Positions 13,292 to 17,242 of a stretch of DNA of 35,059 nucleotides are shown piece after piece. The stretch is from Bryobacteraceae bacterium. Lineage in GTDB: Bacteria > Acidobacteriota > Terriglobia > Bryobacterales > Bryobacteraceae. Positions within the stretch are counted from its first letter, which is position 1. Each line of letters begins with the position of its first letter. Position numbers and translations under genes: made by a program. The notes below the pieces were generated by a model. That model did not search any database. It saw only the letters and a program-made list of their open reading frames with translations, and had not been told where the DNA came from. Location of the stretch: the NCBI GenBank assembly GCA_030041495.1, contig JASHNT010000060.1, forward strand, positions 1 through 35,059, in the 5' to 3' direction.

Positions 13292-14659
13292 ATGCTCGAT
13301 CCAGGAAAGCCAGAACCAGGGAAAAAAGTCCTGCTGATTTCCACCTACGAGCTCGGCCACCAGCCGTTCGGTCTCGCATCGCCGGCGGCGTGGCTCGATC
13401 GCGCTGGCCACAATGTCACCTGTGTGGACCTCGCGGTCGACCCGCTGCCGGAGGACGCGGCGCGCCAAGCCGACTTGGTCGCCTTCTACCTGCCCATGCA
13501 CACGGCGACGCGTCTGGCCGTGCCGGTGATTGAGCGCGTGAGGCAGCTCAACCCGAACGCTCGTCTCGCCTGCTATGGATTGTACGCGCCCATCAATACG
13601 GATCTGCTACGAGCCATCGGCGTAGAGGCGATCGTGGGCGGCGAGTTCGAGTCCGGATTGGTGCAACTGGCCGGAGACCGCGATCCACAACCCATTTCCC
13701 TTGAGCGCCAGGACTTCCTGACTCCGCAGCGCGATTCTCTGCCCGTGCTCAACCGCTATGCCAAGCTACGCCAGAACGGCGACGCCAAGCTGGTCGCCTA
13801 CACGGAGTCGAGCCGCGGCTGCAAGCACGTGTGCCGGCACTGTCCGGTTACGCCCGTCTATAACGGGGCTTTTCGAATCGTCGGGCGCGAGATTGTACTC
13901 GCGGATTTGCGCCAACAGATCGCCGCCGGTGCGGCCCACGTGACTTTCGGCGACCCCGATTTCTTCAACGGCCCCAAGCACGCTCTAGCCATCGTTGAAG
14001 CCCTGCACTCCGAATTCCCCGCGGTCACCTACGATGCCACGATCAAGATCGAACATCTTCAGAAACATCGCGAGTTTCTCCCTCTACTCAGGAAAACCGG
14101 ATGCCTGTTCGTAACCAGCGCTGTAGAGTCGCTCGACGACGCGGTGTTGGCCAAGCTCGAAAAGAATCACACCCGCCGCGATTTTGAAGAGGCTGTGGCA
14201 GCGATGCGCGGCGCGGGCCTGGCGTTGCAACCGACTTTCATTGCGTTCACTCCCTGGACCACGCCCGAAACTTATCGCGACTTGCTGCGGAGTCTCGCCG
14301 CGCTCAATCTGGTACAGCAGGTCGCGCCCGTGCAGCTCGCGCTGCGCTTGCTGATCACCGCGGGCTCACGCCTGCTGGAGCTGGACGACATCCGCGCCGT
14401 CGCCCGCGAATTCGATTCCGAGGCTCTGGTTTATCCCTGGAAGCACCCGGACGCAGCGGTCGACCAGCTCGCGCGCGAAGTGTTCCGCTACGTGAGTCAG
14501 GCGCAAACCCGCAAGCTCCCGCGCGCGGAAATTTTTTCCGGCGTCGCGGATCTTGCCGGAGCCGCCCCCCTGAGTGTCTCGGCTGCTTCGCCATCTCCTT
14601 ACCCGTCGCCTTACATGGACGAGCCCTGGTATTGCTGCGCGGAGCCCCTGCCGGTGTGA
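13292..14659 (+). CDS. CCAEP-tail radical SAM protein (cysteine form of the CUAEP family)
   Basis: A 455-residue radical SAM enzyme. Residues 12-130 form a Rossmann-like, cobalamin-binding-type domain opening KKVLLISTYELGHQPFG; the His of the canonical cobalamin motif DxHxxG is not evident. The [4Fe-4S] cluster motif is CKHVCRHC: Cys177, Cys181, Cys184 (CxxxCxxC). The TIM-barrel pattern HVTFGDPDFFNGPKHA follows at 216-231. The protein ends in a Pro/Ser-rich linker and then WYCCAEP (446-452). In the family I know as CUAEP/CCAEP-tail radical SAM (seleno)proteins, one tail position is selenocysteine or cysteine. Here both codons are TGC, so no selenium is needed. ATG 13292 is the only start that gives a sensible N-terminus; earlier codons overlap the divergent gene. 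Substrate and product are unknown. It overlaps the next gene by 4 nt. Confidence 0.88.
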   Translation: MLDPGKPEPGKKVLLISTYELGHQPFGLASPAAWLDRAGHNVTCVDLAVDPLPEDAARQADLVAFYLPMHTATRLAVPVIERVRQLNPNARLACYGLYAPINTDLLRAIGVEAIVGGEFESGLVQLAGDRDPQPISLERQDFLTPQRDSLPVLNRYAKLRQNGDAKLVAYTESSRGCKHVCRHCPVTPVYNGAFRIVGREIVLADLRQQIAAGAAHVTFGDPDFFNGPKHALAIVEALHSEFPAVTYDATIKIEHLQKHREFLPLLRKTGCLFVTSAVESLDDAVLAKLEKNHTRRDFEEAVAAMRGAGLALQPTFIAFTPWTTPETYRDLLRSLAALNLVQQVAPVQLALRLLITAGSRLLELDDIRAVAREFDSEALVYPWKHPDAAVDQLAREVFRYVSQAQTRKLPRAEIFSGVADLAGAAPLSVSAASPSPYPSPYMDEPWYCCAEPLPV

Positions 14660-15867
14660 AGCGCCGCGTCTTATTCGTCGCATCCAAACTCGGCTACCAG
14701 GTGGCCGAGTTTTACGGAGCCGCGCAGCGGCTCGATGTCGATCTGGTCCTGGCCACCGACCGCTGCCAAATCCTCGACGATCCCTGGGGCGATCGCGCCA
14801 CGCCTCTGCGCTTCGAGATGATTCCTGAAGATCGCGATATTGACGCACTGCGCGCCCGCGGACCCTTTGAAGGGGTCCTCGCTGTGGGCGATCGTCCGGC
14901 ATTCATCGCCGCCTATTGCGCTGAGCGCCTCGGCGTTTCCTTTCATCCCAGCGCTGCGGTCGCCTCGGCCGGAGACAAATACCAGACGCGCGAGCGCTTT
15001 CGCTCCGCCGGCCTGAATGTCCCGGCTTTTGAACTGCTCGCTCCCGGCCAGAGTCGAGCGCAGTCGCGGTTTCCGTGTGTGCTGAAACCTCTGCGCTTTT
15101 CCGCCAGCCGGGGCGTCATCCGCGCCGATTCGCTCGAAGAATTTCTTGCGGCCGAAGCCCGCATCCGCAAAATGACCGGGCCGAACGAGGCGTTGCTGGC
15201 GGAAGATTTCATCCCCGGGCGCGAGTTCGCATTGGAAGGTCTGGTCAACTCAGGCAAACTTCAGGTACTCGCGATCTTCGACAAACCCGATCCTCTCAAC
15301 GGTCCGTTCTTCGAAGAGACCATTTACGTCACGCCCTCGCGCGAGCCGGCGGAGGTGCAGCGCGCCATCGAAGACGCCGCGCAGCGGGCTGTGGCGGCGC
15401 TCGGTTTGCGCCAAGGACCGGTGCACGCCGAGATGCGCGTCAATGAGCGCGGCGTGTGGATGCTGGAAGCCGCGGGACGGCCCATCGGCGGCCTATGCTC
15501 GCGCGTGCTGCGCTTCGACCGGGACGGTGGTTTGGAGGACCTACTGTTGCGTCACGCGGCCGGTGAAGATGTTTCGCAGGCAAAGCTCGCGACTGGCGCG
15601 CATGCCGTGATGATGATTCCCATCCCTCAAGCCGGCGTTTTTTTTCGTGCGGACGGGGTGGAGCAAGCCCGCGCCACTGCCGATATGGAGTCCGTAGAGA
15701 TCACGGCGAAACAAGGGCAGGTCCTGGAAACTCTACCGGAAGGCGCAAGCTACCTGGGATTTCTTTTCTCGCGCGCGCCCCATGCAGCTCAGGCTGAAAC
15801 AGCATTGCGCCAGGCTCACTCTCACCTGCGGTTTCAAATAGAGCCGGTACTGCCCGTCGTAAGATAA
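14656..15867 (+). CDS. ATP-grasp domain protein, coupled partner of the radical SAM protein
   Basis: A 403-residue ATP-grasp enzyme, a class that joins a carboxylate to a nucleophile through an acyl phosphate. The N-terminal domain starts KRRVLFVASKLGYQ. The ATP-binding part includes FPCVLKPLRFSASRGVI, ALLAEDFIPGREFALEGLV, and the Mg-binding segment GPVHAEMRVNERGVWMLEAAGRPIGG, which resembles amino-acid ligases and carboxylases of the BL00235/D-Ala-D-Ala type. A C-terminal domain ends PEGASYLGFLFSR. I chose the GTG at 14656-14658 because it overlaps the radical SAM stop as GTGA, implying translational coupling; an in-frame ATG at 14632 would add eight unlikely residues. Joint action on one small molecule or peptide is inferred from coupling. 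The substrate is unknown. Confidence 0.88.
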   Translation: MKRRVLFVASKLGYQVAEFYGAAQRLDVDLVLATDRCQILDDPWGDRATPLRFEMIPEDRDIDALRARGPFEGVLAVGDRPAFIAAYCAERLGVSFHPSAAVASAGDKYQTRERFRSAGLNVPAFELLAPGQSRAQSRFPCVLKPLRFSASRGVIRADSLEEFLAAEARIRKMTGPNEALLAEDFIPGREFALEGLVNSGKLQVLAIFDKPDPLNGPFFEETIYVTPSREPAEVQRAIEDAAQRAVAALGLRQGPVHAEMRVNERGVWMLEAAGRPIGGLCSRVLRFDRDGGLEDLLLRHAAGEDVSQAKLATGAHAVMMIPIPQAGVFFRADGVEQARATADMESVEITAKQGQVLETLPEGASYLGFLFSRAPHAAQAETALRQAHSHLRFQIEPVLPVVR

Positions 15868-15877
15868 AAAGACTTAT

Positions 15878-17242
15878 ATGAATGTTGCGATTTTGGGAAC
15901 TGGTTATGTCGGTTTGACTACAGGAGCGTGCCTCGCCTACCTGGGACACCAGGTTTATTGCGTCGACGCCGATCCCAAGAAGATCGAAGCATTGGAACGC
16001 GGCGAAATGCCCTTTTTCGAGCCGCACCTGGCCGACGTGGTGGCGGATGCTAAAGAGAACCTGCGCTTCACCACCGAATATGCCCAGGCGATCCCCGCCG
16101 CGCAGGTGATCTTTATTGCGGTCGGCACTCCGCCCGGCCCCGGCGGCGCTCCCGACCTGCGCTACCTGGAAGCCGCAGCGCGCGGCATCGGCGAGTATCT
16201 GGGCCCGCACTTCACCGTGATCGTCAACAAATCCACGGTGCCCATCGGCAGCGGCAACTGGGTGGATTCGCTGGTGCGCGACGCGTTCCAAAAACGCGGC
16301 GGCTCGCGCGCCGGAGGTAGCTTTGCGGTCGCCTCCAATCCCGAATTTCTGCGCGAAGGCTCGGCGCTCGGCGATACGCTCTATCCGGATCGCGTCGTGG
16401 TGGGCGCGGATGAAGAGCCGACAGCGGAGGTGCTGTACACGCTTTACCGGCCCATTCTGGAGCAGACCTTCACCGCTCCCGCTTACTTGCCCCGTCCGGA
16501 AGCCATCGAGGCCGCGCCGCTCATCTCCACCGACTTAGCCTCGGCGGAGTTGATCAAATACGCCGCCAACGCGTTTCTCTCGCTCAAGATCAGCTACATC
16601 AATGAAATTGGTCTATTGGCCGAAAAAGTGGGCGCGGATATCGCACAAGTGGCCAAAGGTATGGGCCTCGACGCGCGCATCGGCACTCGCTTCCTGCAAG
16701 CCGGCATCGGCTGGGGTGGGTCCTGCTTCGGCAAGGATACCGCGGCCTTGGTCGCGACTGCCGCCGAATACGGCCTTCACATGCCTATCGTGATGGCCGC
16801 GCGCGAAGTCAACAAAAAGCAGCGCGAGCGCGTGGTGGACAAACTCCTGGGCGAGCTGAAAATTCTCAAAGGCCGCACCATCGGCCTGCTAGGCTTGGCA
16901 TTCAAACCCAATACCGATGACCTGCGCGATGCCCCCGCCGTGGATATCGCCAAACGCCTGATCGAGCGCGGCGCGCGGGTCAAGGCCCACGATCCCGTCG
17001 CCATGGACCGCTTCCGCCAGGAGCATTCCAACTGCGAAGTGCTCTTGTGCGCTTCGGCCGAAGAGGTCGCCGAAGGCTGCGACGCTCTGGTTTTGGTGAC
17101 GGAATGGCCGGAATATCGAGAGTTGGATTGGGAAAGCCTGGCGAAGTCCATGCGCTCTGCCTTCGTCCTGGATGGACGGCTGGTGTTGGACCGTACGCGC
17201 CTGAGCCGCGCCGGCTTCCGCGTCTCTGGCTTAGCAGGTTAA
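15878..17242 (+). CDS. ugd: UDP-glucose/GDP-mannose dehydrogenase family protein
   Basis: A 454-residue enzyme that oxidises a nucleotide sugar twice to the uronic acid, most likely UDP-glucose to UDP-glucuronate. The NAD-binding start is MNVAILGTGYVGLTTG, and NPEFLREGSA and DLASAELIKYAANAFLSLKISYINE match the family. The catalytic Cys283 lies in GWGGSCFGKD. The C-terminal UDP-binding domain contains LLGLAFKPNTDDLRDAPA. Whether the substrate is UDP-glucose, GDP-mannose or an N-acetylhexosamine cannot be settled by eye. It begins 10 nt after the ATP-grasp stop. It may simply share the transcript, or supply a sugar for polysaccharide together with the dTDP-sugar genes at 3.8-5.3 kb. Confidence 0.93.
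   Translation: MNVAILGTGYVGLTTGACLAYLGHQVYCVDADPKKIEALERGEMPFFEPHLADVVADAKENLRFTTEYAQAIPAAQVIFIAVGTPPGPGGAPDLRYLEAAARGIGEYLGPHFTVIVNKSTVPIGSGNWVDSLVRDAFQKRGGSRAGGSFAVASNPEFLREGSALGDTLYPDRVVVGADEEPTAEVLYTLYRPILEQTFTAPAYLPRPEAIEAAPLISTDLASAELIKYAANAFLSLKISYINEIGLLAEKVGADIAQVAKGMGLDARIGTRFLQAGIGWGGSCFGKDTAALVATAAEYGLHMPIVMAAREVNKKQRERVVDKLLGELKILKGRTIGLLGLAFKPNTDDLRDAPAVDIAKRLIERGARVKAHDPVAMDRFRQEHSNCEVLLCASAEEVAEGCDALVLVTEWPEYRELDWESLAKSMRSAFVLDGRLVLDRTRLSRAGFRVSGLAG

Follow-up and report, generated by a model that had tools for sequence, protein, structure and literature searches.

A CUAEP-family radical SAM enzyme related to ArsL and its ATP-grasp ligase partner in Acidobacteriota and Actinomycetota

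In arsinothricin biosynthesis, ArsL transfers the 3-amino-3-carboxypropyl group of S-adenosylmethionine (SAM) onto arsenic (PMC8552651), and a 2025 review attributes this transfer to a radical SAM enzyme (PMC12159101). The ligase BL00235 makes Met-Gly and Met-Met (PMC6920838). A third family, NF040546 (rSAM_CUAEP), has already been named but carries no function, and a ligase partner for it is given in no record or paper that we found. Here we analyze a stretch of 35,059 nucleotides of contig JASHNT010000060.1 from a Bryobacteraceae bacterium (referred to as the window), in which a radical SAM gene of the CUAEP family is followed by an ATP-grasp ligase gene. With ArsL as its sister group, the radical enzyme is co-inherited with the ligase in two phyla, and the pair probably makes a modified amino acid that is then linked into a small peptide. 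An initial annotation of the window knew of no described function for the pair, and this agrees with our literature search: the motif names CUAEP, CCAEP and RCCLKC gave nothing in a collection that lacks many subscription journals, and NF040546 does not appear in the text of a 2026 selenoproteome review (PMC13188914).

The radical SAM enzyme, its kinship with ArsL and its tail

By score, tail and cluster motif the radical enzyme is a member of NF040546, with no difference from the family. The profile matched it above the curated cut-off over model positions 1–462 of 468 (Table 1), and residues 448–452 form the CCAEP tail that the family demands. The CxxxCxxC motif (C177, C181, C184) does not vary among the 18 CUAEP proteins aligned, and all three aligned ArsL proteins have it too. 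The second-best NCBIfam family was ArsL (NF040542), which reached 268.1 bits with the window protein without attaining its cut-off of 450, and the next family scored 48 bits. With the T. roseum member ArsL scored 315 bits, followed by 57.5. A plasmid search matched 32 records; the 17 matches over at least 80% of the query comprised one CUAEP protein and 16 RCCLKC/ArsL proteins, and the next rows scored 61–63 bits. In the tree, a quick build with ArsL as its sole outgroup and approximate likelihood ratio (SH-aLRT) values as its sole support, 151 CUAEP rows stood apart from six ArsL rows with 100% support. The radical enzyme is thus sister to ArsL, with 31–35% identity to three ArsL proteins, a common RGCxHxC cluster block and a C-terminal Cys-Cys tail in both. 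The tails are not the same, however: RCCLKC, the ending of all three ArsL proteins in the alignment, is absent from the window protein, whereas the CUAEP family has YC[CU]AEP followed by a variable stretch, so that Cys-Cys is common to both and the third cysteine is not. A further difference is that most CUAEP relatives use selenocysteine (Sec) and very few of the 158 loci described below have ars genes nearby.

The predicted model of the radical enzyme (mean predicted local distance difference test, pLDDT, 90.6; predicted template-modeling score 0.89) combines a B12-type Rossmann domain with a radical SAM barrel, and the Pfam B12-binding domain PF02310 matched the N-terminal domain at 30.2 bits, just below its gathering score of 32.1. 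Towards the C-terminus, pLDDT falls below 50 at residues 431–437, the block 441–450 averages 79, and residues 450–452 form a short strand. The top fold matches were AprD4, MgmA, OxsB, TsrM and MiaB. The first four have 13–20% identity to the window enzyme, their chemistry differs from the ArsL type, and to our knowledge none carries a Cys-Cys or Cys-Sec tail. The B12-type N-domain named in the initial annotation is right as to fold, but it does not imply the use of B12, since AprD4 and MiaB have the same fold and are not known to bind it.

A profile scan of genome contigs confirmed at least 568 relatives, of which the best 80 were kept; the spread of the family is therefore a lower bound, and the 80 are biased to close kin. 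Carriage by phages was rejected, as 50,697 phage records gave no match. Outside the window (C17:84471–90468), the source genome also has a same-strand row of four distant radical SAM relatives, scoring 20–74 bits with NF040546.

To describe the tail we used 158 loci, i.e. 180 minus 22 copies, and a pattern of W, an aromatic residue, two cysteines or stops, any residue and E. The tail W-[YF]-[CU]-[CU]-[AS]-E-P was present at 151 of the 158 loci, as Cys-Sec in 113, Cys-Cys in 37 and Sec-Cys in one. Variation within it is limited to Y or F after W and to S in place of A in two cases, and E-P-W-Y-C-C/U-A-E-P is invariant across 18 aligned relatives. Seven loci fell outside the pattern: three lie at contig ends, three (L046, L241, L236) encode it in a different frame or in the variant form ENWFC-TGA-SEP, and L244 is frame-shifted. 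An in-frame TGA at the cysteine position was confirmed in 111 of the 113 Cys-Sec tails, and the other two reach contig ends. The stretch after AEP, by contrast, differs in length (2–43 residues) and in sequence. The single Sec-Cys case is an Anaerolineae member (L116, 10001–11374 onward) reading EEWY-U-C-AEP (codons TAC TGA TGC GCC GAA), so that Sec takes the first of the two positions and not the second as in the 113 remaining Sec forms.

Sec and Cys were exchanged at least 20 times on a quick tree of 157 rows from which the tail had been left out. In the genomes of 61 relatives, selB scored above cut-off in 13 of 17 with the Sec form, in one of seven with the Cys form and in 26 of 37 without the radical enzyme, so that selB is common in this group in any case; two of the four Sec-form genomes below the cut-off gave partial matches. 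The genome of the window gave no selB match at an expectation value (E) of 1e-40. In a test for a SECIS-like hairpin, folding 3′ of the TGA differed modestly between the forms (median z −1.0 for 113 Sec and +0.35 for 37 Cys forms, mononucleotide shuffles). The window protein thus carries a Sec tail in its Cys form, as the initial annotation had said, and Cys replaces Sec in this genome.

The ATP-grasp ligase and its co-inheritance with the radical enzyme

Both the ATP-grasp core (PF13535) and the C-terminal domain of L-amino acid ligases (PF18603) scored above cut-off in the ligase. Against the PDB, the closest entry was 3vot (BL00235), matched over nearly the full length with an E of 1.6e-33 from the single sequence and 1e-71 from a profile. 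The same entry was the top fold match of the ligase model (mean pLDDT 92.2), with a template-modeling score of 0.81–0.83. Sequence and predicted fold thus place the ligase in the dipeptide-forming, BL00235-like type of L-amino acid ligase. Identity to BL00235 is 24%, and the window ligase is not known to share its Met-Gly specificity. An arginine aligned with P85 of BL00235 was considered as a mark of an acidic substrate and rejected, as the position holds Arg in 22 of 34 sequences and Gln, Glu or Asp in the others. The suggestion that the tail of the radical enzyme is the target of the ligase is unlikely, because the ligase appears to be of a type that acts on free L-amino acids to form dipeptides and because the stretch after AEP is so variable.

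Next to ArsL, too, such ligases occur. We inspected the clusters of six of the 16 ArsL/RCCLKC plasmid records, and five (two Priestia, Alicyclobacillus, Pantoea and Klebsiella) contain an ATP-grasp gene of the L-amino acid ligase type; the stretch inspected around ArsL of P. amygdali holds no ATP-grasp gene. The Alicyclobacillus ligase, the one searched against the PDB, is also closest to BL00235. In these five plasmid ArsL clusters (L129, L131, L257, L258 and L259) the ligase is a distinct one, which suggests that arsinothricin or a relative of it may be made into a peptide there.

The ligase follows the radical enzyme through two phyla. Orthologues were counted with a 34-row profile, and in the phylum searches the four best candidates per genome were scored. 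Among the 61 relatives, the ligase is present in all 24 genomes with the radical enzyme (21 above cut-off, three partial) and in one of the 37 without it, G033, whose ligase match is weaker. In 396 Acidobacteriota genomes we detected the radical enzyme in 65, the ligase in 68 and both in 63, i.e. the ligase is present in 63 of 65 genomes with and in 5 of 331 without the radical enzyme (Fisher p = 1.7e-64, uncorrected for kinship). The corresponding numbers for 396 Actinomycetota genomes are 24, 32 and 22, with a ligase in 22 of 24 and 10 of 372 genomes (Fisher p = 2.4e-26, likewise uncorrected). Neither of the two outcomes that the initial annotation named as refuting a system, an ATP-grasp neighbour in only a few genomes or a tail that close homologues lack, was observed.

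Gene order is not the same in the two phyla, yet the two genes mostly remain neighbours. The pair lies within 500 bases in 37 of 63 Acidobacteriota and 16 of 22 Actinomycetota, with six and two more within 10 kb; it is split over different contigs in 19 and three genomes, and far apart on one contig in one of each phylum. Within 10 kb, the Acidobacteriota ligase is downstream on the same strand in 29 cases, downstream on the opposite strand in eight, upstream on the same strand in four and upstream on the opposite strand in two; in Actinomycetota it is upstream on the same strand in 17 and downstream on the opposite strand in one. On the tree the arrangement changes at least 22 times, absence within 5 kb being counted as a state. 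Because the order was rearranged in both phyla, we argue for a real linkage even though the counts are uncorrected for kinship. At the 97 loci flanked by 5 kb to either side, the ligase lies within 500 bases in 55 and within 5 kb in 67; the ligase cluster occurs at 38 of the best 80 named loci. Clustering of the neighbours of 86 hand-chosen loci found the ligase family at 45, followed by NfuA-type and POT genes at 17 each. The GTGA overlap in the window, which the initial annotation took as translational coupling, is real, but as a conserved trait it was rejected: at 66 loci with the ligase downstream (filter −12 to 200 bases), gaps are spread across the whole range. The strong co-occurrence indicates that the radical enzyme and the ligase are, with high confidence, a system.

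A possible route to a modified dipeptide and its rivals

The radical enzyme is inherited together with an enzyme that makes peptide bonds, and ArsL, the closest relative known for it, produces an amino acid that contains arsenic; for these reasons we read the pair as making a modified amino acid that is then built into a peptide. A dedicated modification pathway, as already proposed in the initial annotation, is the simplest reading of the pair. With ArsL as the nearest characterized relative, a concrete chemical prediction can be made. From the computed kinship, tail, ligase type and co-inheritance we infer acceptor capture by the tail, cleavage of the C-gamma–S bond and a dipeptide product. 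The C-terminal Cys-Cys or Cys-Sec arm would capture a metalloid, metal or chalcogen as thiophilic acceptor and present it at the [4Fe-4S]-SAM site. By C-gamma–S cleavage of SAM, the radical enzyme would make a gamma-substituted 2-aminobutyrate on the acceptor held by the tail. The ligase would then couple this amino acid by a peptide bond to another one, yielding a dipeptide, and a transporter of the POT, SSF, MFS or LysE type, depending on the lineage, would move the product. That the product is a small peptide is somewhat favored over its contrary. An ArsL-type transfer as the radical step is a serious possibility that falls short of an even chance, and the whole chain of a two-enzyme pathway to a modified dipeptide is tentative.

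Genes for transport fit a small amino acid or peptide as product. POT oligopeptide symporter genes occur within 5 kb at 18 of the 158 loci (two members identified), an SSF-type cluster lies just upstream at four of the 86 clustered loci (one member identified), an MFS gene stands beside the T. roseum member, and Nonomuraea has a LysE gene.

Several observations weigh against this pathway. POT transporters usually import their substrates. The tail of ArsL has three cysteines and that of the CUAEP family two, and the ligases of the ArsL clusters form a separate family (87–144 bits with the CUAEP-ligase profile, compared to 245 for BL00235); the parallel is therefore the recruitment of a kind of enzyme and not one inherited pair. 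The ligase occurs alone in 15 genomes of the two phyla and the radical enzyme alone in four. In Nonomuraea, T. roseum and the Chloroflexi loci L116 and L124, no ligase was found in flanks of about 8–10 kb on each side of the radical enzyme; the last three were searched in these flanks, while for Nonomuraea (G061) the genome, with four candidates scored, also gave none at an E of 1e-60. Genome G088 has no ligase either, but its locus stops at a contig end. As most genomes are draft assemblies, absence may be missing sequence. Arsenic genes are scarce as well. Eleven single-sequence queries, which overlook distant homologues, found ArsN1 (two queries), ArsQ, ArsB, ArsR, ArsH, ArsP and ArsI at none of the 158 loci, ArsC at one, and ArsM, with two queries, at one and two, one of them within 5 kb. 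MerB, tried as a general partner, was rejected, being present at one of 158 loci and in one of the 61 relatives' genomes.

When the ars search was run again with looser settings and four more queries for ACR3 and ArsR, L060 and a single weak ArsM match were the only additions, and against the window the ars queries gave no match at an E of 1e-3. We therefore do not claim arsenic as the acceptor from gene context, since ars-type genes lie near few of the 158 loci and none lies in the window. Locus L060 (about 14278–16132) holds the sole arsR-acr3-arsC set found at the 158 loci, on the opposite strand between the radical enzyme and the ligase and 3–5 kb from the former. At L241 an ArsM-like match lies about 8 kb away.

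The tail may also serve another purpose. Comparable arms are known from thioredoxin reductase (Cys-Sec) and MerA (Cys-Cys), and the tail could be a redox shuttle or an arm for metal hand-off, with the core doing 5′-deoxyadenosyl or B12 radical chemistry such as methylation or dehydration on an amino acid and the ligase still making a dipeptide. We regard this as rather unlikely, because the ArsL score of 268 bits is far above that of AprD4 (26.8 bits) and of the B12 families, and the Cys-Cys C-terminus of ArsL and the CUAEP family suggests acceptor binding. Less probable still is a detoxification of organo-elements, by which the pair would fix a toxic thiophilic element (arsenic, antimony, mercury or tellurium) in a peptide-bound, exportable form. 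Kinship to ArsL, the arsenic set of L060, the MFS gene of T. roseum and the MerB-like, methyltransferase and LysE genes by the Nonomuraea member would all suit it, but the ars and ArsR queries were empty near the pair at nearly all loci, and the rarity of MerB among the relatives' genomes also speaks against it.

Two further explanations are each very improbable. Ribosomally synthesized and post-translationally modified peptides are substrates of some radical SAM and some ATP-grasp enzymes, and the radical enzyme might similarly modify a ribosomal peptide, with the ATP-grasp enzyme ligating to the peptide or to the tail. Such a maturation is at odds with a ligase of the free-amino-acid type and with the variable stretch after AEP, and clustering of the neighbours, limited to open reading frames of at least 80 or at least 110 amino acids, found no recurrent precursor-like family. 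Alternatively, the two genes could be linked only by common regulation or transfer and have separate functions, which would account for the genomes with one gene alone. Their co-occurrence despite rearranged order in two phyla argues otherwise, as do the 19 and three draft genomes that hold both genes on different contigs. The pathway from a modified amino acid to a dipeptide is our preferred reading.

The locus, its neighbours and the wider meaning

The coordinates of the features are given in Table 1. The open reading frame of the radical enzyme starts with ATG at 13292, stops with TGA at 14657–14659, and its product ends in ...DEPWYCCAEPLPV. The GTG start of the ligase aligns with the MKR... 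start of homologues, e.g. in L032. A BrkB-type gene and a short-chain dehydrogenase gene lie divergently on the 5′ side of the pair, a UDP-glucose dehydrogenase-type gene and a transglutaminase-like gene on its 3′ side. In several close relatives these four genes accompany the pair, but elsewhere they do so only occasionally, and they were therefore not counted as parts of the system. The closest named relatives of the window are metagenome-assembled genomes of Bryobacterales and other Acidobacteriota.

Table 1. Features of the radical SAM and ligase pair in the window
Feature	Position	Strand	Basis
Radical SAM gene, NF040546 (rSAM_CUAEP), Cys form, 455 aa	13292..14659	+	611.2 bits vs cut-off 500
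B12-type Rossmann N-terminal domain, about residues 12–130	13325..13681	+	PF02310 below gathering score; predicted fold
CxxxCxxC motif for radical SAM [4Fe-4S] cluster (C177, C181, C184)	13820..13843	+	Alignment
C-terminal tail EPWYCCAEP, residues 444–452; C449 is Sec in most relatives	14621..14647	+	Alignment
GTGA overlap of radical SAM stop and ligase start	14656..14659	+	Sequence and translation
ATP-grasp L-amino acid ligase-like gene, 403 aa, start GTG 14656, stop 15865–15867	14656..15867	+	PF13535; BL00235 sequence and fold match
LAL_C2 domain of the ligase, residues 320–396	15613..15843	+	51.4 bits vs cut-off 29.4

Other genes recur near the radical enzyme elsewhere. At 31 of 158 loci, in both phyla, an NfuA-type Fe-S carrier gene is found no more than 5 kb away (e.g. 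L073, L173, L187, L194; two members identified). Eight loci (L029, L076, L084, L094, L177, L187, L188, L194), seven of them Cys forms, have a DUF169 gene with conserved cysteines within the same distance. As a partner of the Cys form DUF169 was not accepted and is a lead only: 7 of 37 Cys and 1 of 114 Sec loci differ with a raw p of 2e-4, but on the tree this amounts to about 3.3 and 0.2 independent pairs (p = 0.25). In Nonomuraea candida (L094, 10001–17376) the CCAEP radical enzyme is followed by genes for a methyltransferase, an aminotransferase, a weak WelO5-like match, two MerB-like proteins, DUF169 and LysE. This cluster hints at carbon-element bonds, but it is an isolated case.

In the literature searched we found no mention of the near-constant ligase partner, of the kinship to ArsL and the Cys-Cys arm common to both families, or of the parallel ligase next to ArsL; these observations appear to be new, with a real chance of new chemistry. 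It is an unlikely though conceivable extension that the pairs represent an unrecognized, widespread class of element-bearing dipeptides in Acidobacteriota and Actinomycetota, with a radical enzyme, in most members a selenoprotein, forming a carbon-element bond on an atom other than arsenic held by its own Cys-Sec tail, and with a dedicated ligase. As a Cys form, the window member could be studied with no need for selenocysteine expression. A selenoprotein family that was named but had no function thus gains a near-constant partner in two phyla, a characterized sister enzyme and a prediction that can be assayed. If the prediction is true, the family would be the second branch in which non-canonical SAM cleavage serves to form carbon-element bonds, here through a selenocysteine arm, and would point towards a hidden class of dipeptides.

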